Positions 4,441 to 36,912 of a stretch of 64,000 nucleotides of DNA are shown piece after piece. Made by a program: the position numbers and the translations under genes. Below the pieces are notes generated by a model, which was given only the letters and a program-made list of their open reading frames with translations, was not told the DNA's origin and searched no databases. Where the stretch lies: positions 248,001-312,000 of the forward strand of contig WYAX01000015.1 of assembly GCA_011525625.1 (NCBI GenBank), written 5' to 3'. The stretch's first letter is position 1, and each line of letters starts with the position of its first letter. The DNA is from Nitrospira defluvii. GTDB taxonomy: Bacteria; Nitrospirota; Nitrospiria; Nitrospirales; Nitrospiraceae.

Positions 4441-5217
4441 TTAAGAGAGGTCTGATGCCCGCGGAAGATTCTGCAGCACCCAGGCGCGAATTTTGGATTC
4501 ATCGATAGAAGGGAGCGGCGCGAACTGGATGTCGACCCCCGGATACGTGCCGAGCATTCCTCGCTCTTCATGGAATTCCGGTTCATCACTGCTGTTGAGA
4601 ATGGTGCCGCGCACGGAGAAGCTCAAATCCGCCCCAGGCAGCATAAACGAGAGGATGATCGTGGTTCCGGGAAGCAGCAGGGTACGGCTTTCGATGAAGG
4701 CTCCTACGTGACTGAGCTGGCGGATGGTGGCGGTGTGTTTCGCGCCTTCGCCTTCGCCGTTCGTCACACGAATCGTTGCGGGGAGACAGGTGTCGCACCG
4801 TTTCGGTGCCAGAGCCAGATCTCGCGCCGTCAGAATGCCGACCGGTTGCCCTTGTTTGGTGACGATCAGGAGCGAGGCGCCGGTGGAGGCCATCAGGCTG
4901 GTGGCATCGTCCAGGATCTGATCGCATTCGACGGAGTGGACGGGCTTCGACATGATCGATCGCACTTCCACGTCGTGGGGCTCCAGTCCCTGTGCGACGA
5001 CTTTCTTCACGATGTCGCTCGACGTCATGATGCCGAAAGTGGCCTCACCGTCTTTGATCAGCAGGCAGGGCATGCGCTCCCGTTCCAGGAGCAGGGCGGC
5101 TTCGCTGACAGAGACATCCCCGGGAATCTGCACCACGCCGGGGGTCATCATATGGGCCACCATAGGGGTAGAAAAATGAGTCGGTTTGTCACGGAGCATG
5201 GAGCCGGTCTTGGTCAT
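4441..5217 (-). CDS. CBS-CBS-PilZ domain protein
   Basis: Two CBS repeats (about residues 19-75 and 85-138, each with the MM/IMS..V and GI(M/L)T..D pattern) are followed by a PilZ-like barrel (about 145-250). CBS pairs commonly bind adenosine nucleotides and PilZ domains bind c-di-GMP, so the protein could join energy status with second-messenger signalling. The PilZ motif is noncanonical: the RxxxR arm is not evident and the second motif reads QLSHVG instead of D/NxSxxG, so c-di-GMP binding is doubtful. A CxxC pair (141-144) sits at the domain junction. No output domain is present, so it probably acts through a protein partner. Confidence 0.82.
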   Translation of the reverse strand: MTKTGSMLRDKPTHFSTPMVAHMMTPGVVQIPGDVSVSEAALLLERERMPCLLIKDGEATFGIMTSSDIVKKVVAQGLEPHDVEVRSIMSKPVHSVECDQILDDATSLMASTGASLLIVTKQGQPVGILTARDLALAPKRCDTCLPATIRVTNGEGEGAKHTATIRQLSHVGAFIESRTLLLPGTTIILSFMLPGADLSFSVRGTILNSSDEPEFHEERGMLGTYPGVDIQFAPLPSIDESKIRAWVLQNLPRASDLS

Positions 5218-5328: not shown

Positions 5329-5358
5329 TTGTCAACCAAGCGGTTAGGCGCTTAGACT
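5329..5358 (+). promoter_or_regulatory. Candidate sigma-70 promoter for the DUF692/dus group
   Basis: TTGTCA at 5329-5334 and TAGACT at 5353-5358 are 18 bp apart, giving a start site near 5365 and a very short leader before the ATG at 5379. The match to -10 is only 4/6. Confidence 0.35.
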
Positions 5359-5378: not shown

Positions 5379-6893
5379 ATGGTTGCTTCAAAATATGACA
5401 AATGTGATCTGATGGAAAGCGAATTCATACAACGTGCGAAGGCCCTCCCGGCACTAGGTGCGGGGCTGTCGGTCGATGTCTATTCACCCGATGTGCTGCA
5501 GCTCGTTCAGGCCCTCGGAGAGGCGCAATGGCGTCCCGGCTATCTGGAAGTCTTCAAGGCAACGACGTCGGCCATGCGCTGGCTGCGGCGGCAGCTGCCG
5601 GATCTGCCGCTGACCTACCACGGTGAAGGACTGTGGACCACACAGCCCGACTTTCCTCAGAGTCATTCCGGACGGCAAGGGGTGGCGGAGGCCTGTGCGC
5701 AATTGGCCGCCCTGAGGAGTGCGTGGCTCAATCATGAATGTGCCACCAAGCAGATGGCGGGTTACGCATTCGGCACCTATTTGCCGCCGCTCTATACGGA
5801 GTTGTCGGCAACAATGACTGCGGAGAATGTCACCTTCCTGCAGGCGCGGGTCGACGCGCAGGCTCGGCAGGACGCAATCGATCCCGCGCTCGTGCTGCTA
5901 GAGATGCCGCCGCTCACCTATTTCGGTTGTGGCTCTCTCGCAATCCCCCGGTTCTTCCGCCGGGTGACCGAGCGGTCGGCGTGCGGGTTGGTGCTGGATA
6001 TCGGACATCTGTGGACCGTCTACCGGTATACCGGTGCCTGGCGTCGGCGGACGGTGGAATCCTTCGTGGCCGAGTTTCTGGACGAATTTCCCATGGAGCG
6101 GGTGATCGAAATTCACGTCGCCGGGTTGGCAGAGTTCCCGATGAGGGCTGATGGCGGCACGGCGGACGACGTGCGTGAGCGGCCCTATTGGATCGATGCG
6201 CACGGGGCACCCATCCCCGCTCTATTGTTCGAGATGCTGGCCCAGGTCCTCGCGCACCCGCGACTGCGGTCGTTGAAAGGGGTGGCCTTGGAAGTCGATA
6301 CCAAACCGATTGCGACGATTGTCGAAGAGTACGGTCGATTCGTGACGCGGTTTGACAGGACCATCACGGAGGTGCAGCGAATCGGGCATGCGGGATCACT
6401 TCCGTCCCTCCAAATAGAGACGGGTTATGAAATTGATGTGCCGCAGATTCTGACGGCGGATGAGCGTTCGGCATTACAGCATCAGTATCGATCGTATGTT
6501 CACCGAGTCACCGCATGTGATCCCCGGTCGATAGACGGCGAATTGTCCCTGCTGGGCGGCTCGCCCGAGGACCTGAGTCGGTATCGTACGACCTATCTGC
6601 CGCATGAATTGCTGCATTGGGGGGGGGAGTTGCAGGACATGTTTCCGAAGACTTGCGGTTTGCTGGGGGATGCCGGGGTGTCGCTGGAGCAATTTGTTTC
6701 CGCATGGTTCAGTCGGCCCAGACCGGAGCAGGACGACTATGATTTTTTCCTGCTGAAGATCGATCGGTTTGTCGAGTTCGTGGAACAGTGGTGCCCGGCG
6801 GCGGGGCGCTGCGCGAGCGAGGAGGCGCGGGAGTTACGAGATGCCTATCGTGCAGCGAATGAGCCGATCGGGTCGGTCGAGGAGCGCGTATGA
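5379..6893 (+). CDS. DUF692/MNIO-type multinuclear non-heme iron oxidase with extra C-terminal domain
   Basis: Residues 25-310 match the DUF692 (UPF0276, MbnB/TglH-like) TIM barrel. The metal-ligand positions are all recognisable: His81 in YHGEG, the His119-Glu120 pair, Glu175, Asp207 in LDIGH (usually LDxNN), His246 in IHVAG, Asp273-x-His275 in DAHGAP and Glu305-x-Asp307. Known members bind two or three irons and modify cysteines of ribosomal peptides, normally with a partner protein and a short precursor encoded nearby. Neither is obvious here. About 190 further residues (315-504) form a second region I do not recognise. The 3' end overlaps dus by 4 bp (ATGA). No strong ribosome site marks the start; Met12 at 5412 is an alternative. 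Confidence 0.78.
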   Translation: MVASKYDKCDLMESEFIQRAKALPALGAGLSVDVYSPDVLQLVQALGEAQWRPGYLEVFKATTSAMRWLRRQLPDLPLTYHGEGLWTTQPDFPQSHSGRQGVAEACAQLAALRSAWLNHECATKQMAGYAFGTYLPPLYTELSATMTAENVTFLQARVDAQARQDAIDPALVLLEMPPLTYFGCGSLAIPRFFRRVTERSACGLVLDIGHLWTVYRYTGAWRRRTVESFVAEFLDEFPMERVIEIHVAGLAEFPMRADGGTADDVRERPYWIDAHGAPIPALLFEMLAQVLAHPRLRSLKGVALEVDTKPIATIVEEYGRFVTRFDRTITEVQRIGHAGSLPSLQIETGYEIDVPQILTADERSALQHQYRSYVHRVTACDPRSIDGELSLLGGSPEDLSRYRTTYLPHELLHWGGELQDMFPKTCGLLGDAGVSLEQFVSAWFSRPRPEQDDYDFFLLKIDRFVEFVEQWCPAAGRCASEEARELRDAYRAANEPIGSVEERV

Positions 6894-8071
6894 ATTTCTG
6901 GAAAACCCTGCCGCAGCCGATTCTTGGTTTGGCCCCGATGGACGGGGTGACCGATGCGGCCTTCCGGCGTGTGGTCGCGACCGAGGGGCGCCCCGACATC
7001 ACCTTCACCGAGTTCACCAACGTCAACGAGATCTGCCGCGGGCCGGATCATTTGCTGTCGTCGCTCATCTACAGCGACATGGAGCGGCCCATTGTGGCGC
7101 AGCTCTATGGCAAGGATCCGGAGCAGTTCTATCGCGCGGCGCAGGTAGTCTGCGAGCTGGGGTTCGACGGGCTCGACATCAATATGGGCTGCCCGTCCAA
7201 GAGTGTCGCTGCCTCCGGTTCCGGGGCGGCGTTGATCAAGACGCCGGAGTTAGCCCATGCCATTCTGCGGGCCGCCCGACAGGGCTTGGAGGATTGGGCC
7301 GGTGGGCAATCCATTCATACATTAGGGTTTAAGCCGTCTCGGATTGAATTCATTCATGAGCTGAACCATCGTCGTTCCGGCGCTCCGGTCGTACCGCGCC
7401 GGCTCTTGCCGCTGTCCATCAAGACCAGACTCGGGTTCGATTGCGTGGTCGTGGAGCGATGGGTGGAACATTTGCTGGAGGCGTGTCCCGCAGCCATCAC
7501 GGTGCATGGTCGTACCTTGCAGCAGATGTATCGCGGGGCCGCCGACTGGTCGGCCATTGCCGAGGCGGCAAAGCTGGCTCACGGCACGGAGACGTTGATC
7601 TTAGGCAACGGCGATCTCACGACCCTGGTCGATGCAGTCCGCCGTATGACGGAGAGTGGGGTCCAGGGTGTCTTGGTCGGACGTGGGACACTCGGCTCCC
7701 CATGGTTTTTCCGCGAAAAGGAGCGAGCGCGCCGGGCCTTTCAGGAGCAGCAGGATCTCACCTCGCTTCCCGCCACCGTCTGGGAGCCGCCCGTGTCGTT
7801 GCACCATCGCATGCGGATCATGGTGGACCATGCACGGCAGTATGAAGCCATTGCCGGCGTGGAGCGCTTTCGCAGTCTTCGCAAACATCTCGGGTGGTAT
7901 TGCAAAGGGTTTCCCCATGCGGCGGCCATGCGCGCGAAAATGTTCGGGGTGTCGACCGTGCAGGATGTGGAACGCATTGTTGCCGAGTTTTGCCAGGTCT
8001 CGTTGTCGGAAGATGCGGCCTCGTCCGATTCCCTACCTGCCGTTCATCTGCCTTTTCCCTGCGCGTCTTGA
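6890..8071 (+). CDS. tRNA-dihydrouridine synthase
   Basis: The 393-residue flavoenzyme reduces specific uridines of tRNA to dihydrouridine using FMN. Diagnostic sequence includes LAPMDGVTD near the N-terminus, GFDGLDINMGCPSKSV with catalytic Cys101, the FMN-binding ITVHGRT, and LGNGDL followed by VGRGTLGSPWFF. It is longer than the usual 320-350 residues because of an insertion around residues 145-170. Translation is probably coupled to the upstream iron oxidase through the overlapping ATGA. The subfamily, and so the exact uridine position, cannot be assigned from sequence alone. Confidence 0.92.
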   Translation: MNFWKTLPQPILGLAPMDGVTDAAFRRVVATEGRPDITFTEFTNVNEICRGPDHLLSSLIYSDMERPIVAQLYGKDPEQFYRAAQVVCELGFDGLDINMGCPSKSVAASGSGAALIKTPELAHAILRAARQGLEDWAGGQSIHTLGFKPSRIEFIHELNHRRSGAPVVPRRLLPLSIKTRLGFDCVVVERWVEHLLEACPAAITVHGRTLQQMYRGAADWSAIAEAAKLAHGTETLILGNGDLTTLVDAVRRMTESGVQGVLVGRGTLGSPWFFREKERARRAFQEQQDLTSLPATVWEPPVSLHHRMRIMVDHARQYEAIAGVERFRSLRKHLGWYCKGFPHAAAMRAKMFGVSTVQDVERIVAEFCQVSLSEDAASSDSLPAVHLPFPCAS

Positions 8072-8074
8072 TCC

Positions 8075-8707
8075 ATGCGATTGATTCTGGCCTCTACGTC
8101 TCCACGCCGGCGTGAACTTTTGACCTTATTGGGCATACCCTTCGAGGCCGTCGTCCCGCTGTTTATCGAGGACGTGACGTCGGCTGTGCCTGCCGAGCAG
8201 CAGGCGATGACGTTTGCGATCGGCAAGGCCCGCTCCTGTCTCCCGAGCTGTCACGACGCACTCAGTCTCGGAAGCGACACCTTAATCAGCCTTGAGCAGG
8301 AGGTGATGGGAAAGCCCGTTGATTTGATCGATGCAGAAGCCATGCTCCGGCGCCTGGCCGGCCGGACGCACAGGATCGTGACCGCCGTCGCGCTGGTTGG
8401 GCCTGAGCCGACAGCTTGCGAGGTCCGGCTCGCGACTGTGTTGGTCGCGATGAAGCCTCTGGAGGAAGCCGCGCTGGCTGCGTATCTGCGTACGGGTGAT
8501 AGCTTGGGGAAGGCCGGGGCCTACTCCATCCAAGGAGGCGGGGCGACGCTGATCGAGCGGATTGAGGGGGACTACACCGCGGCCGTTGGGTTACCACTGC
8601 GGTTGGTCGCTGAGTTATTGCATCTGCGCGGCATGCCCTGTCCCGTCGATATTGAACAGCTTTACGCCCGCAAGCCCTACCCCAACTGGAATCGGTTCGG
8701 TTCGTAG
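8075..8707 (+). CDS. maf: Maf family nucleoside triphosphate pyrophosphatase
   Basis: The 210-residue protein begins LILASTSPRRRELL, the Maf SxRRxxLL signature, and has the catalytic loop LGSDTLI with Asp68 followed by GKP and RLAGRTH. Maf proteins hydrolyse non-canonical or excess nucleoside triphosphates to the monophosphate and are linked to septum control. The gene starts 3 bp after the dus stop and is likely the third gene of that operon. Confidence 0.9.
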   Translation: MRLILASTSPRRRELLTLLGIPFEAVVPLFIEDVTSAVPAEQQAMTFAIGKARSCLPSCHDALSLGSDTLISLEQEVMGKPVDLIDAEAMLRRLAGRTHRIVTAVALVGPEPTACEVRLATVLVAMKPLEEAALAAYLRTGDSLGKAGAYSIQGGGATLIERIEGDYTAAVGLPLRLVAELLHLRGMPCPVDIEQLYARKPYPNWNRFGS

Positions 8708-9795: not shown

Positions 9796-11199
9796 TTACG
9801 CGCCGGACCACAAGTCTTTTGCTTTGGCATAGGCGCCATTGCCCACTTTTTCTCCAAGATCGAGCCCGACGACATTGCCCTCATAGAAGTGAATGCCGCC
9901 ATACAGACGCGATTCTCCGGCTTCTCTGGCTGCCGCGGTAAACGTAGGCCAGTGCAGAACGATATCGGTAACGGGCTCAGTGGGATCGGCTTTGAGTGGG
10001 ACGTCCTGAGAATAATAAAAACCAAACGTATCGCTATTGGTGAATTTCTTAAGAATGGTGGCGGCGGCCATCGAAAAGCCGCTGTGGCCTGATGTGAATT
10101 CGGCAAATGGTGGGGTGGGGAATGTGGGAACTTGAAATGGCTTCCAGAATTCTCCAGTAATCTCCTGCGTTCCCTTACCTGCCCCACCCCAGGCGAGGAT
10201 GCGCTTGCCGCGGAACATGTGGCGAATAGCAGTGACCGGACGCACATAGTCAAACGCAACTTTAGCGTCCCACGTCGCAATGCTGGCATCGAACACAGCG
10301 TTGGATAAGGCGAAAAATAGCTTTACGCTCTGATTCACATCGAGGTTGTCGCGCTCGACGACGAATGCGGCGAATTCGGTCCAATGACCGGGTGGCAATT
10401 CGGAGTTCGGGCCGTCTGCCCAATACTCGGCGATGACTTTCTGCTCAGGGGTGAGGCGAGCCTGAATATCAATGACATGCCTCGCCTGATCCAGAAACCC
10501 TTGGCTGAGCGGGGGCTGGGGTGCCGTAGGGGGACGGCACTGATCGCCGCTTGTGAGTGCGAATGGTTTGACATGCTGCCAATGGGGACAAATGAATTTG
10601 GGGGTTTTCAGCTCGTGGTCGGAGTTTAAGTAGGAAAGAGGTTGCCATCTGCCCGGGAAATCGATTGCGTCCGGATCGGCTGGGAGTAAAACAGACATGG
10701 GTCTGTTGACGGGAGCATAGCCAGTGGTGTCGGCATATAAGCCGGATTGATTCGAATTGTCGCTGTGACGAAATGCCAACACATCGTCCGCTGCCTGGTT
10801 ACCGACATCGACGGGTGGGGGCGTTGGTCCTCCGATGACAATCCCTTCTTTCGCCAATTGTTTGGCCAGCATAGATTCATAGGCCGTTTTGAAAACGGGG
10901 TCGAAAATACTAGGCGGAAATTGATCGATCAACGTGCGGTAGGCAGCTTGACTGATGGCCTTTCGTCTGTTGGCTTCCGTGTGTTGGGGCACAGGCTTCC
11001 TGGGTGTAGTCCTGTGAACCGGCTTCGCGACGCTGTCATAGGCACACCAGGCATCGTAGATCGTCGTGTGGACGATGCTGATCGACCGAGCCACCTGTGG
11101 GGGGCCTCCGCGATCTCTGTCCAGGCTGGTCGATGGAAGTTTGCCTACTGCGCGAATGGCTTCCAGCAGAATATTGTTCCATTCCACGATCAGATTCAT
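9796..11199 (-). CDS. Vanadium-dependent haloperoxidase (PAP2 superfamily)
   Basis: The start at 11199 is set by GAGGAGACCTCA-ATG on the minus strand. The 467-residue product has every vanadate-binding residue of the family at correct spacing: Lys313 and Arg320 (KVAFDYVRP), Ser370-Gly371-His372 (TSGHSG), Arg431 and catalytic-pocket His437 (RLYGGIH). Such enzymes oxidise halides with hydrogen peroxide, or act as phosphatases when vanadate is replaced by phosphate. No signal peptide is evident. The gene reads as lower in GC and richer in TTT/AAA codons than its neighbours, is alone on its strand, and lies between direct repeats, which suggests acquisition. Confidence 0.88.
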   Translation of the reverse strand: MNLIVEWNNILLEAIRAVGKLPSTSLDRDRGGPPQVARSISIVHTTIYDAWCAYDSVAKPVHRTTPRKPVPQHTEANRRKAISQAAYRTLIDQFPPSIFDPVFKTAYESMLAKQLAKEGIVIGGPTPPPVDVGNQAADDVLAFRHSDNSNQSGLYADTTGYAPVNRPMSVLLPADPDAIDFPGRWQPLSYLNSDHELKTPKFICPHWQHVKPFALTSGDQCRPPTAPQPPLSQGFLDQARHVIDIQARLTPEQKVIAEYWADGPNSELPPGHWTEFAAFVVERDNLDVNQSVKLFFALSNAVFDASIATWDAKVAFDYVRPVTAIRHMFRGKRILAWGGAGKGTQEITGEFWKPFQVPTFPTPPFAEFTSGHSGFSMAAATILKKFTNSDTFGFYYSQDVPLKADPTEPVTDIVLHWPTFTAAAREAGESRLYGGIHFYEGNVVGLDLGEKVGNGAYAKAKDLWSGA

Positions 11200-11441
11200 T
11201 GAGGTCTCCTCTTCTTTAAAGTTCCTCAGTGCATGACACGGAATGGCCGATATGCCGGCAATCGCCCTCACGTGTGCATTTGGGCCTATACGTAGTGCCA
11301 TCCTGCGCGATGTGCGGCCATTTCCCGTTCTCGCGTTCCGCAATCATCGTGCCAACGCTATGAGGAGCATTGGTTCTTGGTGTATTTATGGAAACGTATG
11401 GAGAAGAAGTGCGCCAACGATTACCTGTCTGAATGTGATCG

Positions 11442-28811: not shown

Positions 28812-31800
28812 ATGAGGTCTTCAGTGCAGTCAAAACGCAGGCGCATCAGTCGCAAAGCGATGCTGAGCCTGCAGGCGGCGCTGCTCTCGGGCAGTTTGCT
28901 TGCCGCGCCGTGGGTGTTCGCGGCTGGGCCAGGCGATTCGTCGCACGACGGACATGCGACGCCGGTCGCTATGCCTGGTTGGACCCAGACCCTCAAGGGT
29001 CAAACCGTGGTGGAAAACGCCATGGAGGGTCGTGCCGGGAACGCAGAAAAGATGGAGATGCAGCACCACCGCCTGATGGAGAAGTTGGAGCAGCAGGCGG
29101 GCAACGATGCCAAGGCGCAGCAGACCTCCGGTGCATTCAACGAGATGTCGATGATGCACCAGTATATGGGGCAGGACGGCAGTAGCTTCCTGCTCGCGTC
29201 CGATTCGTCGAAGGGCGAGCCCGTCATGACCTCCGGCGGGAAGTGTCCGGCGAATGCACCGGTGAAGAAGTATGATGTGTCGATGATCAACATCGAAATC
29301 AGCTTGAACCGGTGGCTCGACTACTATCCCGGATATATGTACGTCCATACCGGGGAAATCGACAAGGTTCGCGCCGAAGAGACCAAGAACAAGGAAGCGC
29401 GCGAGAAGGAAGGCTTCGATCCTGGAGCGGTGACGACCGGAAACCAGGGCGATGCCATTCAGCCGCTGGTCCTTCGTGCCAACCAGGGCGACTGCGTAAA
29501 GATGACGCTGCGCAATCAAATGGAAGGCGAGGATGGCAGCTTGGTCATCCAGGCTTCCAGCATGATCGTCAGTGCCACCGGAAAGCCGGCCACGACGACC
29601 AATCCCGATACGGTGGTGTCGCCGGGTAAGTCGCAAGAGTTCGAATGGTATATCCATCCGACCATGCAGGAAGGTGTGCGTCAGTTCCATTCGTGGAGTA
29701 ATGATCGTGAGTTGACGGTGTTGGGGCTCTTCGGAGCCTTCATCGTCGAACCGAAGGGCTCCAAATATCTCGATCCGCTCGGCACGGGCAGCGCGCCCGA
29801 TGCGAACAGTGGATGGCAGGTCATGATCGATAACGGCACTGGACCTGACTTCCGTGAGTTCGTGCTGTTCTATCACGAGATCGGCGACGAAGCGTTCCGT
29901 CCGCTGAACAAGAAGGGTGACTTCTTGCCGCAGCGCGATCCGCTGACCGATGCCTATCGTCCGGGTGGCCGCGCGATCAACTATCGTAGCGAGCCGTTCG
30001 GTATCGACCAGATGCATTTGCAGCACGAGTATTTCGGGTTCGAAGATGAATCGCTGGCCTACAGCGCGTACACCTTCGGCGACCCACCCACCACGGTGGC
30101 CCGCGGTTACCTCGGTGACCCGGTCAAGTGGCGTCTCGTGCACGGTGGATCCGAAGTGTTCCACTCGCACCATCCGCACAGCGGAACCATCCGCTGGCAG
30201 CGGAGCCCGGGCACGGAGCTGAACAATCTCTGGGCGGCGGGTCAGGACGGACCGGTGAAGTATCCGGTCGTGCGAACGAAGTCCGATCGGGTGGACGTGG
30301 AAGTGATCGGGCCGTCCGAGTCTCTCGATCTGGAACCGGAATGCGGCGGCGGTGGCTGTCAGCACCTGGCCGGTGAATTCCTCTATCACTGCCATGTGGC
30401 ACACCACTATGTGGCGGGGATGTGGGGCTACGGCCGATTCTACAATACCTTGCAGGTCGGCAATGCCCATACCGACACGATGCCGGATATGCGTGAGTTG
30501 CCGGATCGGCAGGGTCGCATGAAGCAGGGCGTGTCGTCCGACAAGTTGATCGGGACGACCGTCGATTGGTTCGGTAAGACCTTCAAGATCGTCGATAAGA
30601 GCCAGAAGACGAACTGGAAGTCCGATCCTGTGATCGTGAACATCAAGGATTGGGTGGAAATGTTCATCCCGGCTCAGGGGCAACCTGGCCACACCAACGA
30701 TGAAAAGGGCCAGATCATGGCCTACGATGCGACGGTGTGGGATTGGAAGTGGGACGGCAACATCGCCCGCGGCGAGCGGGAGAGCACGGCGCTGAATCCC
30801 AAGTATCCAGCCGCCGCCAAGTGGGATGACAGCACCAGACCGGCGATCCTGTTCGATCCGACGACGGGAAAAATGGCCTGGCCGTTGTTCAAGCCGCACT
30901 TCGGCAAGCGGGTACCCTTCTCGGCGAACCACAGCGGTGCGCCATGGTTAGAGCCGATTCACCAGGATGAAAACGGTGAGCGGACCTCCGAGCCGGCGAA
31001 GCCGGGCGAACAGGGTCGTTGGAGCCTGTGCCCCGACAACGCCAATCGGAAGCATTACAACATTCACTTTGTCCGCATGCCGATCACTCTGGCCAAAAAG
31101 CAGGGCAAAGAGCCGGCCATGGTGGATAAAGACGGTCTGATCTACCTCCTTCACGAAGAAGAGCGGTTGACCAGAGCCAATGACGATCTGAAGCTTCCTG
31201 CCGTCATCCGCGCCAACGTGTATGACTGCGTGGACCTGTTGTTGACCAGCGAATGGGACGACGACGATTACACGAACTTCCAGTCGTCCAAGATCAACAT
31301 CCATCCTCACTTCTTCCAGTTCGACACCGGGAATTCGGACGGTGTGATCTCCGGAATGGAGTATGAGATGTCGGTTCGGCCGTTCACCATGTGGGGGAAG
31401 AAAACCAAGCATGGGTTGCCGGCACCGATGGTCGCGAAGCTCACCGGCGACGCCAAAGCCGGAGCCACCTCCATTAAGTTCCAGATGGCGCCTGGCGCCA
31501 CGCCGTTCCACGTCAACACCGAGTTGATGGTCGGTATGGACTGTTTGGAGAAGGGCAACGATCCGGCGGCATCACTGCCGCGGGATAAGAGCTGTCAGGA
31601 AGTCGTGCGTGTGAAGGAAATCAAGGGCGATGTCATCACGTTCTTCAAGCCGCTGAAGCACCATCACCCGGTGGGCGACCTCGTGTCCCCGGAGTTCGTG
31701 CGTTATCGGTGGTGGGTGGACGTGGACATGGGCACGGTGTTCTGGCATGACCACGCGTTCGGCGCGACCACCTGGCCCCATGGCGGGTTCGGCGTGACGA

Positions 31801-33749
31801 TCGTGGAGCCGTTCGGATCCACCTATCATGATCCGAAGAACGGCAAGTTGGTCTACAGCGGGCCGATCGCGGACATTCACAGCAATGAGCCGATCGGCGC
31901 CGGTGTCAGCGGCAGCTTCCGTGAGTTGATGGTTTCGATCCACGACACGGTGCCGCACACGGTCAATGTCATCGAAGCCGGCAATCCTCCGGGACAGCCG
32001 ATCGAAGTGGCGTTGGAAGCGGGCAAGACGGTGTCGTTCCAGATGCCGGATAAGATCTTGAACGCCCCGAACAAGTACATCAACGGCGGTACGCATACGA
32101 CCGGTAGCGGCTTCAACTTCCGCGCGGCTCCGTTTGCACAACGCCTGTCCAACAATCCGGACACCTCCAAGCTGTTCAGCAGCGCGGTCCACGGTGATCC
32201 GGGCACTCCGCTCCTGCGGGCGTACACGGGCGACACCATGGTGTTCCGCCTGTTGCACCAGCTGATGAACGAGTCGCACGTCTGGACGATCGCCGGCCAT
32301 ACCTTCCTCACGGAGCGGTATGCGGCGGATGCCAACCGGAAGAACTCGATTCACGTCGGGATCGCCGAGCGGTATGACCTCGTCTCCAAGGCGGGCGGAT
32401 TCCAGGGGATGCCTGGCGATTACATTCACTTCAACGGCAGAACGTCACACTTCGCCGAAGGTGGATGGGGCATCATCCGTGTGCTCGACAAGGAAACGGC
32501 GGACTTGAAGCCGCTGCCCAAGGGGACCAATCCTCTCGGGATCCCAGCGACACCAAATTCCGTCTGTCCGTCGGATGCTCCGGTGAAGAGCTTCAACGTC
32601 GTGGCGTTGGATCGCCCGATGAAGCTCAATCCGAAGTCCCCGGATGCGATCGAGGTGGACTTCGAGCGGAAGATCGAAATGACCATGCCGGAAGGCAAGA
32701 TCTTCGCGCTGGAGGAAGAAGCCGCGACCGTGGCGGGCAACGTGATGCCGAATCCGCTCACGCTGCGCGCGAATCTGGGCGATTGCATCAAGGTGAATCT
32801 GAAGAACAAGATGAAGGCGAGCCGGGCGTCGTTCTTTGCGCCGGGCCTGGCCTTCGATCCGAAAGACAGCCAGGGCCTGAATGTCGGCAACAACGCCGGC
32901 GACCAGACCGTGGCGCCGGGCGAAAGCCGCACCTATACCTACTACGCGCATCCTTTGAACAAGGAAACGACGTCGTTGGTCTGGGACGGCGGCAACATCG
33001 TCCTCAATCCGCGCAACGGATTGTACGGCGCGATCGTCATCGGGCCGAAGGGATCGCAATATCGTGATCCGGTCACCGGTGCCGATGTGTCGCAGAAGAA
33101 CGTGTGGCGGGCGGACGTCATTGTCGACGCCAGCCTGCCTGAGAACGTCGGCAAGCGGAACTACCGTGATGTGGCCCTCTTCTTCCAAGATGAGGACAAC
33201 ATTATCGGAACCGCGTTTATGCCGTACGTGCAGAACGTGGCCGGTTTGACGTCGGTGAACTACCGCGCCGAACCGTACAAGTTCCGTGAAGAGCAAGGGT
33301 GCTCGCTGGGCAAAATGTTCCAGCCTTGTGCGGTGGATAAGCCCGAAGATCCCGTGACGCCTTTGATCGAGGCGCATGCGGGCGATGCGATCCGTATCCA
33401 CGTGATCGGCGCAAACAGCGAGCAGAACGGCATGTTCAGTGTCGAAGGCCACGAGTGGCCGATCGAACCGTACATGCCGGGTGCGGATATGATCAGCGTG
33501 GTGGAATACGCCGGGTCTGAGACCCTCGACGTCTTCATCCGTGGCGGTGCGGGCGGACCGTATCGTCAGGTGGGTGACTTCGTGTGGTCGAATGCCCGGT
33601 TGCCCTACACGCAGTCCGGACAGTGGGGCTACCTCCGCGTGTTGCCGGTCGGCGATTCGCGGATTCAGCCTCTGAGCGCAAGCGGATCGGGTGCACGTCA
33701 AGCTGAGATCCAGCCTGATGCGCAAGCGATTCCGACGGCCATGAAGTAA
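28812..33749 (+). CDS. Giant exported multicopper oxidase with permuted copper motifs
   Basis: The 1645-residue protein has a signal peptide (residues 1-38) and a Met/His-rich stretch (about 44-130), then about six cupredoxin domains. Copper motifs seen: His451-Ser-His453-His454-Pro-His456 (L3 type), His526-Cys527-His528, His531/532 and Met537 (L4 type, full T1/T3 set with axial Met), His831-Pro-His833 (L1 type) and His979-Asp-His981 (L2 type). L3-L4 come before L1-L2, the reverse of laccases. The last two domain pairs lack complete sets. It should oxidise a substrate while reducing oxygen in the periplasm or outside. Large size recalls the MnxG/McoA manganese oxidases, but substrate is unproven. 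Monocistronic: sigma-54 promoter before, strong terminator after. Confidence 0.92.
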   Translation: MRSSVQSKRRRISRKAMLSLQAALLSGSLLAAPWVFAAGPGDSSHDGHATPVAMPGWTQTLKGQTVVENAMEGRAGNAEKMEMQHHRLMEKLEQQAGNDAKAQQTSGAFNEMSMMHQYMGQDGSSFLLASDSSKGEPVMTSGGKCPANAPVKKYDVSMINIEISLNRWLDYYPGYMYVHTGEIDKVRAEETKNKEAREKEGFDPGAVTTGNQGDAIQPLVLRANQGDCVKMTLRNQMEGEDGSLVIQASSMIVSATGKPATTTNPDTVVSPGKSQEFEWYIHPTMQEGVRQFHSWSNDRELTVLGLFGAFIVEPKGSKYLDPLGTGSAPDANSGWQVMIDNGTGPDFREFVLFYHEIGDEAFRPLNKKGDFLPQRDPLTDAYRPGGRAINYRSEPFGIDQMHLQHEYFGFEDESLAYSAYTFGDPPTTVARGYLGDPVKWRLVHGGSEVFHSHHPHSGTIRWQRSPGTELNNLWAAGQDGPVKYPVVRTKSDRVDVEVIGPSESLDLEPECGGGGCQHLAGEFLYHCHVAHHYVAGMWGYGRFYNTLQVGNAHTDTMPDMRELPDRQGRMKQGVSSDKLIGTTVDWFGKTFKIVDKSQKTNWKSDPVIVNIKDWVEMFIPAQGQPGHTNDEKGQIMAYDATVWDWKWDGNIARGERESTALNPKYPAAAKWDDSTRPAILFDPTTGKMAWPLFKPHFGKRVPFSANHSGAPWLEPIHQDENGERTSEPAKPGEQGRWSLCPDNANRKHYNIHFVRMPITLAKKQGKEPAMVDKDGLIYLLHEEERLTRANDDLKLPAVIRANVYDCVDLLLTSEWDDDDYTNFQSSKINIHPHFFQFDTGNSDGVISGMEYEMSVRPFTMWGKKTKHGLPAPMVAKLTGDAKAGATSIKFQMAPGATPFHVNTELMVGMDCLEKGNDPAASLPRDKSCQEVVRVKEIKGDVITFFKPLKHHHPVGDLVSPEFVRYRWWVDVDMGTVFWHDHAFGATTWPHGGFGVTIVEPFGSTYHDPKNGKLVYSGPIADIHSNEPIGAGVSGSFRELMVSIHDTVPHTVNVIEAGNPPGQPIEVALEAGKTVSFQMPDKILNAPNKYINGGTHTTGSGFNFRAAPFAQRLSNNPDTSKLFSSAVHGDPGTPLLRAYTGDTMVFRLLHQLMNESHVWTIAGHTFLTERYAADANRKNSIHVGIAERYDLVSKAGGFQGMPGDYIHFNGRTSHFAEGGWGIIRVLDKETADLKPLPKGTNPLGIPATPNSVCPSDAPVKSFNVVALDRPMKLNPKSPDAIEVDFERKIEMTMPEGKIFALEEEAATVAGNVMPNPLTLRANLGDCIKVNLKNKMKASRASFFAPGLAFDPKDSQGLNVGNNAGDQTVAPGESRTYTYYAHPLNKETTSLVWDGGNIVLNPRNGLYGAIVIGPKGSQYRDPVTGADVSQKNVWRADVIVDASLPENVGKRNYRDVALFFQDEDNIIGTAFMPYVQNVAGLTSVNYRAEPYKFREEQGCSLGKMFQPCAVDKPEDPVTPLIEAHAGDAIRIHVIGANSEQNGMFSVEGHEWPIEPYMPGADMISVVEYAGSETLDVFIRGGAGGPYRQVGDFVWSNARLPYTQSGQWGYLRVLPVGDSRIQPLSASGSGARQAEIQPDAQAIPTAMK

Positions 33750-33775
33750 GTAGGACCGTCATGGCGTAACACCGG

Positions 33776-33810
33776 ATGGGGGAGCTGCCTGTACCACGCA
33801 GCTCCCCCAT
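33776..33810 (+). terminator. Strong stem-loop terminator after the multicopper oxidase
   Basis: A perfect 13-bp stem (33776-33788 with 33798-33810, core GGGGGAGCTGC/GCAGCTCCCCC) surrounds a 9-nt loop and is followed by CTGTGTTTTG. Confidence 0.8.
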
Positions 33811-33911
33811 CTGTGTTTTGAGTCTCAGGAGAAGAATTCTGTGATCGGTTCCCTGTATGATCGAGGAATGTTGTCGATCGCAGCATGGACCAATCACAAA
33901 GGAGGCCATAC

Positions 33912-34901
33912 GTGACACTGGGGACCACAATTCAGAATGAACGGCAGAGGATGACGATGCGCTGGGTTGGGCAAGTCATGGGAATCGCAACGATGGCGCT
34001 CGCCTCGTCTTTCGCGAGCGCGTTTGCATCGACCTATGAAGAAGTGACGGTGTCGGATGGAGGGACGCTGACCGGGGTCGTCAAGTTAGAGGGCATCGTT
34101 CCAAAACCAAAAGGGTATAACCTCACCACGCTGCCCGATCCGTTCTATTGCGGGCGCATTTCCGATGGAGAAGGGTGGCGTATCCTGCAACCGTTCAATG
34201 TCGGACCCAAGGGTGAGTTTCGTGAAGTGGTGGTCTATCTCGAAGGGATCGAGAAGGGCAAGCCCTTCGCTGAAAAAGAGGTCCCGCAGATCGAAGCGAA
34301 GGATTGTCTCTTTCTGCCGTTTACGACCATCGTACGGGACGATCAGTCGGTGACGGTCGTCAACATGGATCCCGTCATGCACGATATTCAAGCGTATGAA
34401 ACGTCGAATTTAGGCGCCCGTGTCCTGTTCAACGTTCCGCTGCCGATGAATCCGCAGCATCCGCGGAACTTCAAGGATCGTACCGAAGCCGGGATGTATC
34501 ACAAACACATGGCTGGCCCCCCGATGAAAGAACTGGTTAAGCTCAGCAAGGGGCGCCGGATCTTCGTCATGCAGTGCGGGTTCCATGCCTACATGGAGAG
34601 CTGGGGAGTGGCCATCACGAATCCCTACTTTGCCAAGACAGATGAACAGGGCCGTTTCACCATGACCGATGTGCCACCGGGAACCTATAAGTTGGTCGTG
34701 TGGCATCCCTATATCAGAACGGCTACGGAACAAACCGTCACCATTGGACCGAAGGGAACCGTTGACACGACGATCGGGGTTCCTGCGCCGACCGGGCGGT
34801 TGTATGCCAATGAGGTGCTCGACCATGCGTATACCCGGTACAACGTGACGGAGGAAGCGAAGAAGGAAATCGATCCCCTGCTTCAAAAGCAGGAGCACTG
34901 A
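33912..34901 (+). CDS. Exported cupredoxin / carboxypeptidase-regulatory-like protein
   Basis: GTG 33912 has AAGGAGG 6 nt upstream. The 329-residue product has a signal peptide ending near FASAFAS. The middle part carries a cupredoxin-like site: His157 (MHDIQAYE) and Cys222-x2-His225-x2-Met228 (CGFHAYM), a type 1 copper ligand set as in the methylamine-utilisation/plastocyanin-like family. A carboxypeptidase-regulatory-like beta domain follows (TDEQGRFTMTDVPPGTYKLVVWHPY). It is probably a periplasmic copper electron carrier or docking protein. Position directly after the oxidase suggests it may exchange electrons with it, although a terminator separates the two transcripts. Confidence 0.85.
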   Translation: MTLGTTIQNERQRMTMRWVGQVMGIATMALASSFASAFASTYEEVTVSDGGTLTGVVKLEGIVPKPKGYNLTTLPDPFYCGRISDGEGWRILQPFNVGPKGEFREVVVYLEGIEKGKPFAEKEVPQIEAKDCLFLPFTTIVRDDQSVTVVNMDPVMHDIQAYETSNLGARVLFNVPLPMNPQHPRNFKDRTEAGMYHKHMAGPPMKELVKLSKGRRIFVMQCGFHAYMESWGVAITNPYFAKTDEQGRFTMTDVPPGTYKLVVWHPYIRTATEQTVTIGPKGTVDTTIGVPAPTGRLYANEVLDHAYTRYNVTEEAKKEIDPLLQKQEH

Positions 34902-34914
34902 TCCGACGCCGGTC

Positions 34915-34963
34915 ATGCAGAACGAGCCATTGCCGTTTCTGCATGGCCGCCATCGGCGGCCAG
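34915..34963 (+). other. Two adjacent stem-loops between the cupredoxin and FGE-like genes
   Basis: CATGCAGAA pairs with TTCTGCATG (34915-34946), and TGGCCGCC-ATC-GGCGGCCA (34945-34963) forms a second perfect stem. The two share two bases and so exclude each other at full length. No T-run follows; they may stabilise or attenuate the transcript. Confidence 0.45.
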
Positions 34964-34983
34964 CGAACGACGAGTGATGTACG

Positions 34984-35916
34984 ATGCCTATAACGTGCAC
35001 GATTGGCAGGATCGTCTTGGCAACGGTCGTGAGTATGACGAGTTGGTGGGCCGCTGCCGACTGGGCCTGCGCCGACCATGAGTTGCCGAAGCCCCCGCCC
35101 TTGTGGTCGCCGCTCGATGAGGCAGAGCGACTAGCATTGATCGACGTGCCGAGCGGCATGGCGCCGGTGCCGGCCGGTGCGTTTCTGATGGGGAGCGACC
35201 CAAAGTTCGATCGGGCGGCTGGTCCGCAAGAGCAACCGCAGCGTACGGTGTATGTCGATGCGTTCAGCATTGACCGCTATGAAGTCAGCAATGTGAATTA
35301 TCTGCGGTATGTCTTGGCCACGGGGGCTGCTTGGCCGCACTACTGGCGAGGCCAGCCGTTTCCCGAAAAAATGGCAAAACATCCGGTCATCGGTGTGACC
35401 TGGCGGGAAGCCGATGCCTATTGCCGCTGGCGCGGCACCCGCCTTCCGACGGAAGCGGAATGGGAGAAAGCCGCACGGGGGGAAGACGGACGTATGTTTC
35501 CGTGGGGAAACGAACCGGCCGGATGGATCAAAAGTAACATCGCGCATTCCGGGTCGAAGCGTGGCGCGAAATATCCTCCATTGGCGAACGTCGATCGCTA
35601 CGACAACGGCGTGAGTCCGTATGGTGTCTATCAATTGGCCGGCAATGTCAGCGAATGGGTTTCGGATTGGTTCGATCCGGAATACTATCGACGAGAGCAG
35701 AACCGGAATCCGGTGGGGCCGGAGTCTGGGCAGGATAAGGTGTTTCGCGGCGGGTCCTGGAATGAAGATCCCGAGGTCGCCCGTTCCGCCGGGCGGAATG
35801 CCGGTAGTCTGGATCACTGGAGTTACTTGACGGGATTTCGTTGCGCGCAATCGGGTGACACAAGCCATCAACTGTCGGCGGTCGATCCGGAACTTCTACA
35901 GAAGGTCGATCGCTGA
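34984..35916 (+). CDS. Exported FGE-like (SUMF1 domain) protein, first copy
   Basis: A 310-residue protein with a signal peptide (cleavage near WACA, residue 30) and a full formylglycine-generating-enzyme-sulfatase fold: [36 protein letters not shown] and a final FRGGSW...GFRC. The two copper-binding cysteines of true FGE, which follow the GGS motif, are absent; the stretch reads WNEDPEVARSAGR. It is therefore unlikely to make formylglycine and may be a structural or substrate-binding paralogue. No sulfatase is nearby. It is followed 33 bp later by a related gene. Confidence 0.88.
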   Translation: MPITCTIGRIVLATVVSMTSWWAAADWACADHELPKPPPLWSPLDEAERLALIDVPSGMAPVPAGAFLMGSDPKFDRAAGPQEQPQRTVYVDAFSIDRYEVSNVNYLRYVLATGAAWPHYWRGQPFPEKMAKHPVIGVTWREADAYCRWRGTRLPTEAEWEKAARGEDGRMFPWGNEPAGWIKSNIAHSGSKRGAKYPPLANVDRYDNGVSPYGVYQLAGNVSEWVSDWFDPEYYRREQNRNPVGPESGQDKVFRGGSWNEDPEVARSAGRNAGSLDHWSYLTGFRCAQSGDTSHQLSAVDPELLQKVDR

Positions 35917-35949
35917 GGGTGCGGCGGGAATATCGGAGGGAGGCCGAAC

Positions 35950-36912
35950 ATGAGGAGGCAGCGAAGAGGCGTGGCACGGGCACTCAAACGCGCGGGGCAA
36001 GCGTTCGTGATCGGAACGGCATTGTTCGCGCTGATGCCGGTCGCGCGGGCGCTGGATACACAAGACATCGTGATCGAGTGGACCGAAGAAGGGAAAAAAC
36101 TCGCGCAGGAGCGGGTGGCACAGTGGAAGACCAAGGAAGACATGGTCCTCATTCCGGCCGGTGAATTCCTGATGGGGAGCGAGAAGAAGACCGATCGTCT
36201 TGCTTATCGGAGCGAGCTTCCCCAACGATCGGTGTATCTGGATGCGTTCATGATCGGCAAGTATGAAGTCACGGCGCTGGAGTATCTCAAGTTTGTGCTG
36301 GCCACCGATCGTCTCCCCCAATTGGACTGGCGGTACGACGGCGGGAACTTCCAGGAATCGATGGCGCATCATCCGATCATGCATGTCAGTTGGTACGATG
36401 CGGATGCCTATTGCAGATGGGCGGGCAAGCGGTTACCGACCGAAGCCGAATGGGAGAAGGCGGCGCGCGGAGTCGACGGCAGGTTGTTCCCTTGGGGCAG
36501 TGAACTTGCGGGGCCGACTCGTGCGAATTTCGGCAGAACGGGTTTATCCGGACCGGTGCGGGATCGTCCCGAGCGGTTGTTGCTCTATCCGCCGATCATT
36601 TCCGTGGACAAATACGGCAATGCGCTGAGCCCGTACGGGCTCCATCAAACCATCGGCAACGTGGCCGAGTGGGTCGCCGATTGGTACGACCAGGATTATT
36701 ACAAGACCGCGCCGAGCCGGAATCCGAAGGGACCGGACACCGGCACGCAGAAAGCGTTCCGGGGCGGCGGGTGGATGGACAGCACGACCACGATGCGGGC
36801 CGCGATGCGCAACGGTACCGATCCGAAGACCAAGATCAATTGGATGGGGTTCCGGTGCGCGCAGGATGCCAAGGATGACGCGGGCCCGAAAGTCTCACTG
36901 GTGAAAGAGTAG
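35950..36912 (+). CDS. Exported FGE-like (SUMF1 domain) protein, second copy
   Basis: A 320-residue paralogue of the preceding protein with its own signal peptide (ending near ARA-LD) and the same blocks: [37 protein letters not shown] and FRGGGW...GFRC. The catalytic FGE cysteines are again missing ([13 protein letters not shown]). The ribosome site GGAGGGAGGCCGA closely copies the one ahead of the multicopper oxidase. Tandem retention of two exported, cysteine-free copies suggests a heteromeric scaffold or an assembly role for the copper proteins. Confidence 0.88.

Follow-up and report, generated by a model that had tools for sequence, protein, structure and literature searches.

What does an oxidase of the MNIO (multinuclear non-haem iron-dependent oxidative enzyme) superfamily act on when no precursor peptide is recognised beside its gene? 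The question is raised by a gene at 5379..6893 (+ strand) of the window, meaning the whole stretch of DNA analysed here: 64,000 nt of a Nitrospira genome (contig WYAX01000015.1 of GCA_011525625.1, positions 248,001–312,000, forward strand). In the parts of the published literature drawn on here and below, characterised MNIOs belong to clusters for ribosomally synthesised and post-translationally modified peptides (RiPPs), and most of them either have a separate partner protein or are fused to a RiPP recognition element (RRE); further background is given in PMC10214503, PMC12257519 and PMC11117315. Here, instead, a near-fixed core gene of a major nitrifier family encodes an apparent half-partner in the same chain and a coupled swap of metal ligands. 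It seems moderately probable that the product is a one-chain MNIO that includes its own partner domain, oxidising a genetically unlinked, probably protein, substrate. Keyword searches of the literature gave, among the matches listed, no publication on a Nitrospira DUF692 MNIO or on a natural MNIO–DUF2063 fusion of this kind.

Assignment of the gene to the MNIO/DUF692 superfamily, proposed in a preliminary description of the window, is supported by sequence, fold and nine ligand positions. The Pfam family MbnB_TglH_ChrH (PF05114, DUF692) matched residues 62–308 with 49 bits against a cut-off of 25, and hhalign comparison of the MNIO family profile with BufB gave 99.0 % probability (E 5e-18). 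NCBIfam matches were to MNIO families only and all fell far under their cut-offs (ApyH 37.7/400, BufB 36.1/310, HvfB type 26.8/360), so the protein appears to be a distant branch and none of the named MNIO types; a phmmer search of the whole protein against the PDB gave no match. The AlphaFold2 whole-chain model (41 sequences; mean predicted local distance difference test score, pLDDT, 87.8; predicted template modelling score, pTM, 0.89) contains a TIM-barrel catalytic domain at residues 26–310 (5454..6308, + strand). The seven top PDB rows for this barrel were all MNIO structures (Z 20.3–25.8), including TglH (Z 25.8, root-mean-square deviation (rmsd) 2.8 over 268 residues), MbnB (24.0) and 3bww (20.3). 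Duplicates, the fragments L042 and L069 and the early-stop or frame-problem loci L003, L024 and L047 were left out of the A1 alignment (41 rows).

The fold comparison also bears on a different assignment, that of a metal hydrolase or isomerase of the endonuclease IV/xylose-isomerase-like barrel group. Here LDxxH, which we take to be an endonuclease IV-like barrel pattern, would be an ancestral zinc-type site, and the C-terminal tail a separate nucleic-acid- or protein-binding module, fitting the RNA-modifying neighbours. Endonuclease IV and epimerases were the next fold matches after the MNIOs, xylose-isomerase-like barrels occurring from the first non-MNIO row (Z 16.5) downward, and the gene overlaps that of a dihydrouridine synthase (Dus) in one family and that of a pseudouridine synthase in locus L041. 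However, the first other barrel falls 3.8 to 9.3 Z units below the seven MNIO rows, Pfam and NCBIfam match MNIO families only, and the top PDB match of the tail is an MNIO partner protein. We regard this assignment as rather unlikely.

The metal site was compared with that of TglH, in which Fe1 and Fe2 are held by His71, His107, Glu151, Asp184, His216 and Glu258, and Fe3 by Asp184, Asn187, Asp229 and His231 (PMC10880893). Correspondence of ligands was taken from the hhalign profile alignment with BufB and a multiple alignment of 18 MNIOs. All nine cluster positions carry His, Asp or Glu in the window MNIO (H E E D H H D H E), each invariant in 47/47 orthologues; this set was without L106, L110 and L111 (MNIO unlabelled by the open reading frame picker), L116 (truncated) and L117 (split), and its A1-type rows were thinned by hand. 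Seven of the nine residues are those of TglH: His81 (5619..5621; TglH His71), Glu175 (5901..5903; the bridging Glu151), Asp207 (Asp184), His246 (6114..6116; His216), Asp273 and His275 (6195..6203; the Fe3 ligands Asp229 and His231) and Glu305 (6291..6293; Glu258), all on the + strand. The other two differ. Glu120 (5736..5738, +; motif ECAxK) occupies the Fe1 histidine position of TglH His107 and aligns with the His of SEHL in BufB, and His210 replaces Asn187 within the motif LDIGH (residues 206–210; 5994..6008, +), which also contains Asp207. The preliminary description had correctly noted LDIGH in place of the common LDxNN. Its statement that all metal-ligand positions are present holds in that a ligand-type residue stands at each of the nine, but the standard ligand set that it implied does not, the Glu at the Fe1 histidine having been missed.

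Solved MNIO types have Asn at the third position after the Asp (LDVNN, LDLHN, FDISN/FDASN). In the 18-MNIO alignment, a small set picked by similarity searches on plasmids, 11 sequences read HHEDNHDHE, five of the Nitrospira-type family HEEDHHDHE, and two plasmid MNIOs HDEDHHDHE, with the His in LDIGH (Streptomyces) and IDVSH (Piscinibacter). Because these two MNIOs of other phyla carry the same kind of paired swap, the alignment indicates that the change from His to Glu at Fe1 and from Asn to His at Fe3 is paired and not private to Nitrospira, and that LDIGH marks an MNIO subclass. The signature of the Cys-modifying subgroup, His at the second Fe1 position and Asn at Fe3 (MbnB, TglH, HvfB, BufB), is not found in the window MNIO family, Glu120 and His210 being invariant. 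Departures at site 3 are compatible with membership of the superfamily, since PesH and PflD are reported to have lost Fe3 residues (PMC13060819). For HvfB, the site-3 residues are reported as essential though the site itself seems empty (PMC13419390).

The paired change distinguishes the window MNIO from the Cys-modifying enzymes and hints at hydroxylase-like chemistry on a non-Cys residue. This is the weakest step of our reading, its single pointer being the ligand swap shared with a cluster that resembles std. In the std cluster, which has a precursor and an RRE partner, the MNIO StdE hydroxylates homocitrulline (PMC13174530). The std-like cluster on the Piscinibacter plasmid has a similar paired swap, with an acid at Fe1 and His at Fe3; StdE itself was compared by description only.

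Both plasmid loci have features of their own. Beside the MNIO, the Piscinibacter gummiphilus stretch (L170, 1493–5825) encodes a carbamoyltransferase and a peptide of 57 residues with the end GLSNKARQKPW, and it looks std-type with a variant core; it is partly std-like in that the peptide has SNK and the final Trp without the SNKEWQE motif, and no YcaO gene is present in that stretch. On the Streptomyces europaeiscabiei plasmid (L173, 1–5798), a 533-residue MNIO with its own long tail lies beside YcaO, metallo-beta-lactamase-fold, LuxE and acyl-CoA reductase genes and is perhaps a second type of MNIO fusion. The small protein next to it has neither SNK nor the std motif.

The barrel is followed by about 190 residues, as had been described, and the window's own tail matches no Pfam family. 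This C-terminal region (residues 311–504; 6309..6890, + strand; partner-like part 364–504) is helical throughout in the AlphaFold2 model except for a low-confidence loop near 341–352. The model has no strand after residue 305 and the chain ends with the helical domain, so the RRE half of a partner protein is absent. Modelling of the region for comparison with MNIO partners, a course suggested by the preliminary description, placed TglI, the partner of TglH, first in the PDB, at a weak score. With Foldseek, the first match of the isolated tail model among 350,542 PDB chains was 8hi7_A (TglI; E 0.35, probability 0.84). A second structural comparison (VIA) was headed by 8hci_A (Z 6.1, rmsd 6.3, 133 residues, TglI 2–163), with 8hi7_A at Z 6.0 (rmsd 5.6, 127 residues, TglI 1–156) and the following row at 5.3. 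With the full-length model, VIA listed no partner proteins because the barrel fills the list, which is not evidence of absence. The low-scoring match is telling because the helical half of TglI had no DALI relatives according to the part of its structure paper drawn on (PMC10880893), and because the top PDB match is a partner of exactly the MNIO type.

The sequence profile of the tail was also compared with the DUF2063 part of the Nitrospira BufC, giving hhalign scores of 22.7 (local) and 12.0 (global). Column shuffles (100) scored 12.4 ± 3.0 locally, with 1/100 reaching the real score, and 2.8 ± 1.9 globally, with 0/100 reaching it; shuffling destroys helical periodicity, which makes this a soft control. 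None of 67 real-protein decoy windows reached either score; these windows were taken from the fetched family loci and represent no more than 16 other protein families. The DUF2063 slice (columns 1–122) was chosen after a plain comparison on columns 1–130 and before the controls. In a tail-only search of 118 genomes, all 44 matches were fused, one per genome, in frames of 292–645 codons, and all were in MNIO-bearing genomes; no free-standing copy was seen, with at most 27 candidates scored per genome, so that a distant copy could escape. Among PME domain types, the RRE that follows the helical domain is described as full in type 1 (DUF2063) and often short or absent in type 2, whose helical domain resembles TglI or NGO1945 in structure. 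On the models and profiles together, the tail is probably a distant PME-type-2 domain, that is, a TglI-like helical domain without the Pfam signature, an assignment in which we have reasonably good confidence.

The published partner systems suggest what such a domain would do. In TglI, the helical N-terminal half alone contacts TglH, and the C-terminal domain is an RRE that binds the leader (PMC10880893). HvfC is required for the active mixed-valent cluster of HvfB, and an engineered HvfB–HvfC fusion, which has the same domain order as the window MNIO, was more active than the co-expressed pair (PMC13419390). MovX needs no separate partner (PMC12452194, PMC13419390). By analogy, a multinuclear iron site is expected in the N-terminal barrel of the window protein, which would use O2 to oxidise a side chain. 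From the fold resemblance and the profile comparison, the fused helical domain would replace the MNIO-binding half of a separate TglI/DUF2063-type partner, clamping the barrel and poising the iron cluster without a second gene. Such partners also have an RRE half that binds the leader; as the window protein lacks it, the enzyme probably meets its substrate directly, be it a folded protein or a peptide from an unlinked gene. Naturally fused to the helical half but lacking an RRE, the barrel may thus keep the cluster-related job and drop leader binding, which fits the finding that no precursor was recognised near the MNIO gene. The preliminary description had offered a choice, a substrate encoded elsewhere or a tail that replaces the partner; the resemblance to the helical half of TglI and, weakly, to DUF2063, and the lack of a linked precursor, favour both together.

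Comparison with known systems shows where the likeness ends. With TglHI (3-thiaglutamate/pearlin biosynthesis; PDB 8hi7, 8hci), the protein shares the barrel fold and seven of nine ligand residues, and its tail weakly resembles the N-terminal half of TglI, but it is one chain and not two, lacks the RRE half, has Glu for His107 and His for Asn187, and has no scaffold peptide gene nearby. Similarly, its barrel is homologous to BufB of the BufB–BufC and HvfB–HvfC systems (bufferin, oxazolin; DUF692 with DUF2063–RRE) and its tail is collinear with the DUF2063 domain of BufC above all decoys, whereas a DUF2282 precursor and an RRE are lacking, the ligands are altered and the gene is near-universal rather than sporadic in its family. 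Other known MNIO fusions also join an MNIO to another domain; here the fused domain looks like the helical half of the partner and not like an RRE or a nitroreductase.

Several results weigh against a built-in partner and the chemistry proposed for it. The isolated tail model (47 sequences) reached only pLDDT 74 and pTM 0.59, and the scores of the match to TglI (E 0.35, Z about 6) are low on an absolute scale, a Z below about 13 for helical bundles possibly reflecting a common arrangement. Pfam DUF2063 (PF09836) matched 0/47 tails at E up to 10, plain hhalign probabilities of the tail against DUF2063 were 0.2–6 %, and the tail sequence searched against the PDB gave no partner-protein match. 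The DUF2063–RRE structure 3dee was absent among the best 50 of 91 Foldseek matches and from the VIA list, which is not evidence of absence. The link from the ligand swap to non-Cys chemistry is thin, given the Piscinibacter peptide without the EWQE end, the stretch without YcaO and the motif-less Streptomyces protein, and the 11 classic MNIOs of the comparison are mainly bufferin-type sequences that are not independent of one another.

A more far-reaching version of the proposal is doubtful, if conceivable: a self-sufficient, RRE-free MNIO in core metabolism that would oxidise a conserved residue of a folded protein in aerobic chemolithotrophic Nitrospirota (Nitrospira, Leptospirillum), using a trinuclear site rewired by the transfer of one histidine from iron 1 to iron 3. 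If the single-chain reading is true, the protein would be a naturally occurring one-chain system in which the contribution of a partner's helical half to the iron cluster could be studied separately from leader binding. It would also allow a test of whether Cys chemistry and C–H hydroxylation are distinguished by the Fe1/Fe3 swap, and would suggest that nitrite oxidisers and comammox bacteria have a conserved oxidative modification of protein.

The lack of a visible peptide precursor, on which this reading in part depends, was borne out: none was recognised beside the MNIO gene in the operon with dus and maf or in the upstream gap. The operon genes abut or overlap, and therefore no small open reading frame lies between them. 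In the 161-base upstream gap, no small frame is common to all 26 genus loci, the largest groups comprising 18, 15 and 11 loci (the eight largest groups were inspected, with up to six members each). Frames of the 11-locus group have a GTG start, about 30 codons and, in the copies printed, two Cys, and overlap a promoter-like site. A small upstream precursor was rejected on these grounds, frames being present in at most 18/26 loci and the two-Cys group overlapping the promoter-like site with a GTG start.

A conventional two-part MNIO, with its precursor and RRE protein elsewhere in the genome and the tail a mere stabilising extension, would equally leave the operon without a precursor, and sizeable proportions of bufferin precursors are reported as genetically unlinked to MNIO genes (PMC12452194). 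The same genome does contain a normal bufferin operon on another contig (L070 2525–5016, G000 contig C28), with a DUF2282 precursor, BufB, BufC with DUF2063 and DoxX, identified by eye. Its BufB scored 367.7 bits against the cut-off of 310, DUF2063 and DUF2282 were also over their cut-offs, and the operon served as an internal comparison. Among 61 relatives, however, DUF2063 was over the cut-off in 14 and DUF2282 in 11, all 11 also having DUF2063; two more genomes gave sub-threshold DUF2282 matches, and 50/61 had no bufferin precursor over the cut-off. As DUF2063 and DUF2282 are sporadic whereas the MNIO is near-universal in its family, most genomes have no classical bufferin partner. A bufferin substrate was rejected for most relatives, DUF2282 being over the cut-off only where DUF2063 occurs. 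Together with the apparently TglI-like core of the tail, this makes the two-part arrangement unlikely, slightly more so than the hydrolase or isomerase assignment.

A similarity search of the 61 relatives gave a match in 41; that in G010 came only via a BufB beside a DUF2063 gene, which leaves the long protein in 40. Of the 37 members of the gene's own family among them, 35 have the MNIO, those without it being G032 and the fragmented G010. A profile search of 295 genomes of the phylum gave 107 positives: 78/79 of the own family, seven from the rest of the order, one from the rest of the class and 21 of a distant family (f21) that we take to be Leptospirillum and kin. The figure of 78/79 was counted from the listing, in which G032 is the sole family genome among those non-matching genomes that are listed, in order of kinship; G276 and G314 have partial matches only, and a related genus (g11) is without the MNIO. 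The MNIO is therefore a near-fixed core gene of the Nitrospira family. Outside the phylum, searches of plasmids with the window protein and with the L107 protein yielded no record in which 80 % of the query was covered at one place, and the matches opened were without this tail.

In the Leptospirillum-like loci, a small lipoprotein gene follows that of the MNIO in L102, L103 and L112–L115, its product having three invariant Cys (lipobox, CP and FxxC); the protein is a candidate substrate there. This could mean that the Leptospirillum-like group modifies the adjacent lipoprotein at its invariant Cys beyond the lipobox and that Nitrospira uses another protein. The six aligned copies, named lipoproteins by eye from the lipobox, share C29, C102 and C129, and the gene lies directly after the MNIO in 6/13 f21 loci with a labelled MNIO (two of these 13 loci end at that point); elsewhere the position is taken, for example, by a CheZ-like gene. 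In favour of such a substrate, bufferin precursors carry Sec signal peptides, about 16 % of the Buf2 ones having lipoprotein signals (PMC12452194). The lipoprotein is nevertheless absent beside the MNIO in L105 and L107, a search without a positive control found this type in 0/61 Nitrospira relatives, and two of its Cys could simply form a disulphide. We consider this division of substrates quite unlikely, less probable than the two-part arrangement.

The coupling to a dihydrouridine synthase noted in the preliminary description is real, but a functional role is not supported. The start of the dus gene (6890..8071, +; PF01207, E 1.4e-57) overlaps the MNIO stop by 4 bases (ATGA, 6890–6893), and dus is followed in the operon by a Maf-like gene (8075..8707, +; PF02545, E 6.3e-48, and synteny). 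The 4-base overlap occurs in 37/41 rows from several genera; two genomes are included twice (L029/L031 and L030/L032), giving 35/39 distinct loci. The order MNIO–dus–maf is kept in the family loci with flanks long enough, L069 being cut at a contig end, and the same hypothetical gene follows maf in all except L045, which gave no match. On this basis the MNIO and Dus could share a target, either tRNA or a protein of translation, with their ratio set by the conserved overlap, and MNIO genes have been reported beside those for peptidyl-tRNA hydrolase (PMC12452194). Among the loci seen, however, the linkage occurs in one family only. In two other families of the order (f2/f3), the MNIO is not beside dus, which lies at other places in the same five genomes, and dus is present in 13/20 relatives without a match to the window MNIO. 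The window Dus matches none of the predicted neighbouring proteins in the Leptospirillum-like loci. Outside the family, neighbours of the MNIO include gltBD in L038, L039 and L042 (named by eye) and the overlapping pseudouridine synthase gene of L041. The dus overlap is thus, among the loci seen, an operon arrangement of one family, with no partner gene common to all. Dus was rejected as a functional partner outside the family, the coupling is real though probably without functional meaning, and joint action of the two enzymes is very improbable.

The MNIO frame comprises 504 codons, but its true start is probably Met12 at 5412, giving 493 amino acids, and Met1 is doubtful. This is indicated by a TAG at codon 9 in the close relative L003, the lack of a start codon at the codon 1 position in L028, the beginnings of full-length matches in other genera (residues 11–13, one at 7) and a pLDDT below 50 for residues 1–7. 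The orthologue of Candidatus Nitrospira defluvii (FP929003.1) is 69 % identical to the window protein; it came from a genome-contig scan by exact short peptides, which detects close relatives only. Upstream, a sigma-70-like promoter, TTGTCA-18-TAGACT (5329..5358, +; one site found, 0.3 expected), is predicted by consensus and conservation, since it recurs in slightly altered form in the aligned upstream regions of the 26 genus loci, and may act as the operon's promoter. The first 11 codons (5379–5411) seem kept at the DNA level genus-wide despite the codon-12 start, possibly reflecting a leader-region constraint. A divergent CBS-PilZ gene (4441..5217, − strand; profile match and synteny) marks the upstream boundary.

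Elsewhere in the window, a vanadium-haloperoxidase/PAP2-like protein is encoded at 9796–11343 on the − strand (VCPO_2nd, E 2.7e-20). At positions 28812–36912, a multicopper-oxidase-like protein of 1645 residues is encoded ahead of a CarboxypepD_reg-domain protein and then two consecutive FGE-sulfatase-domain proteins.

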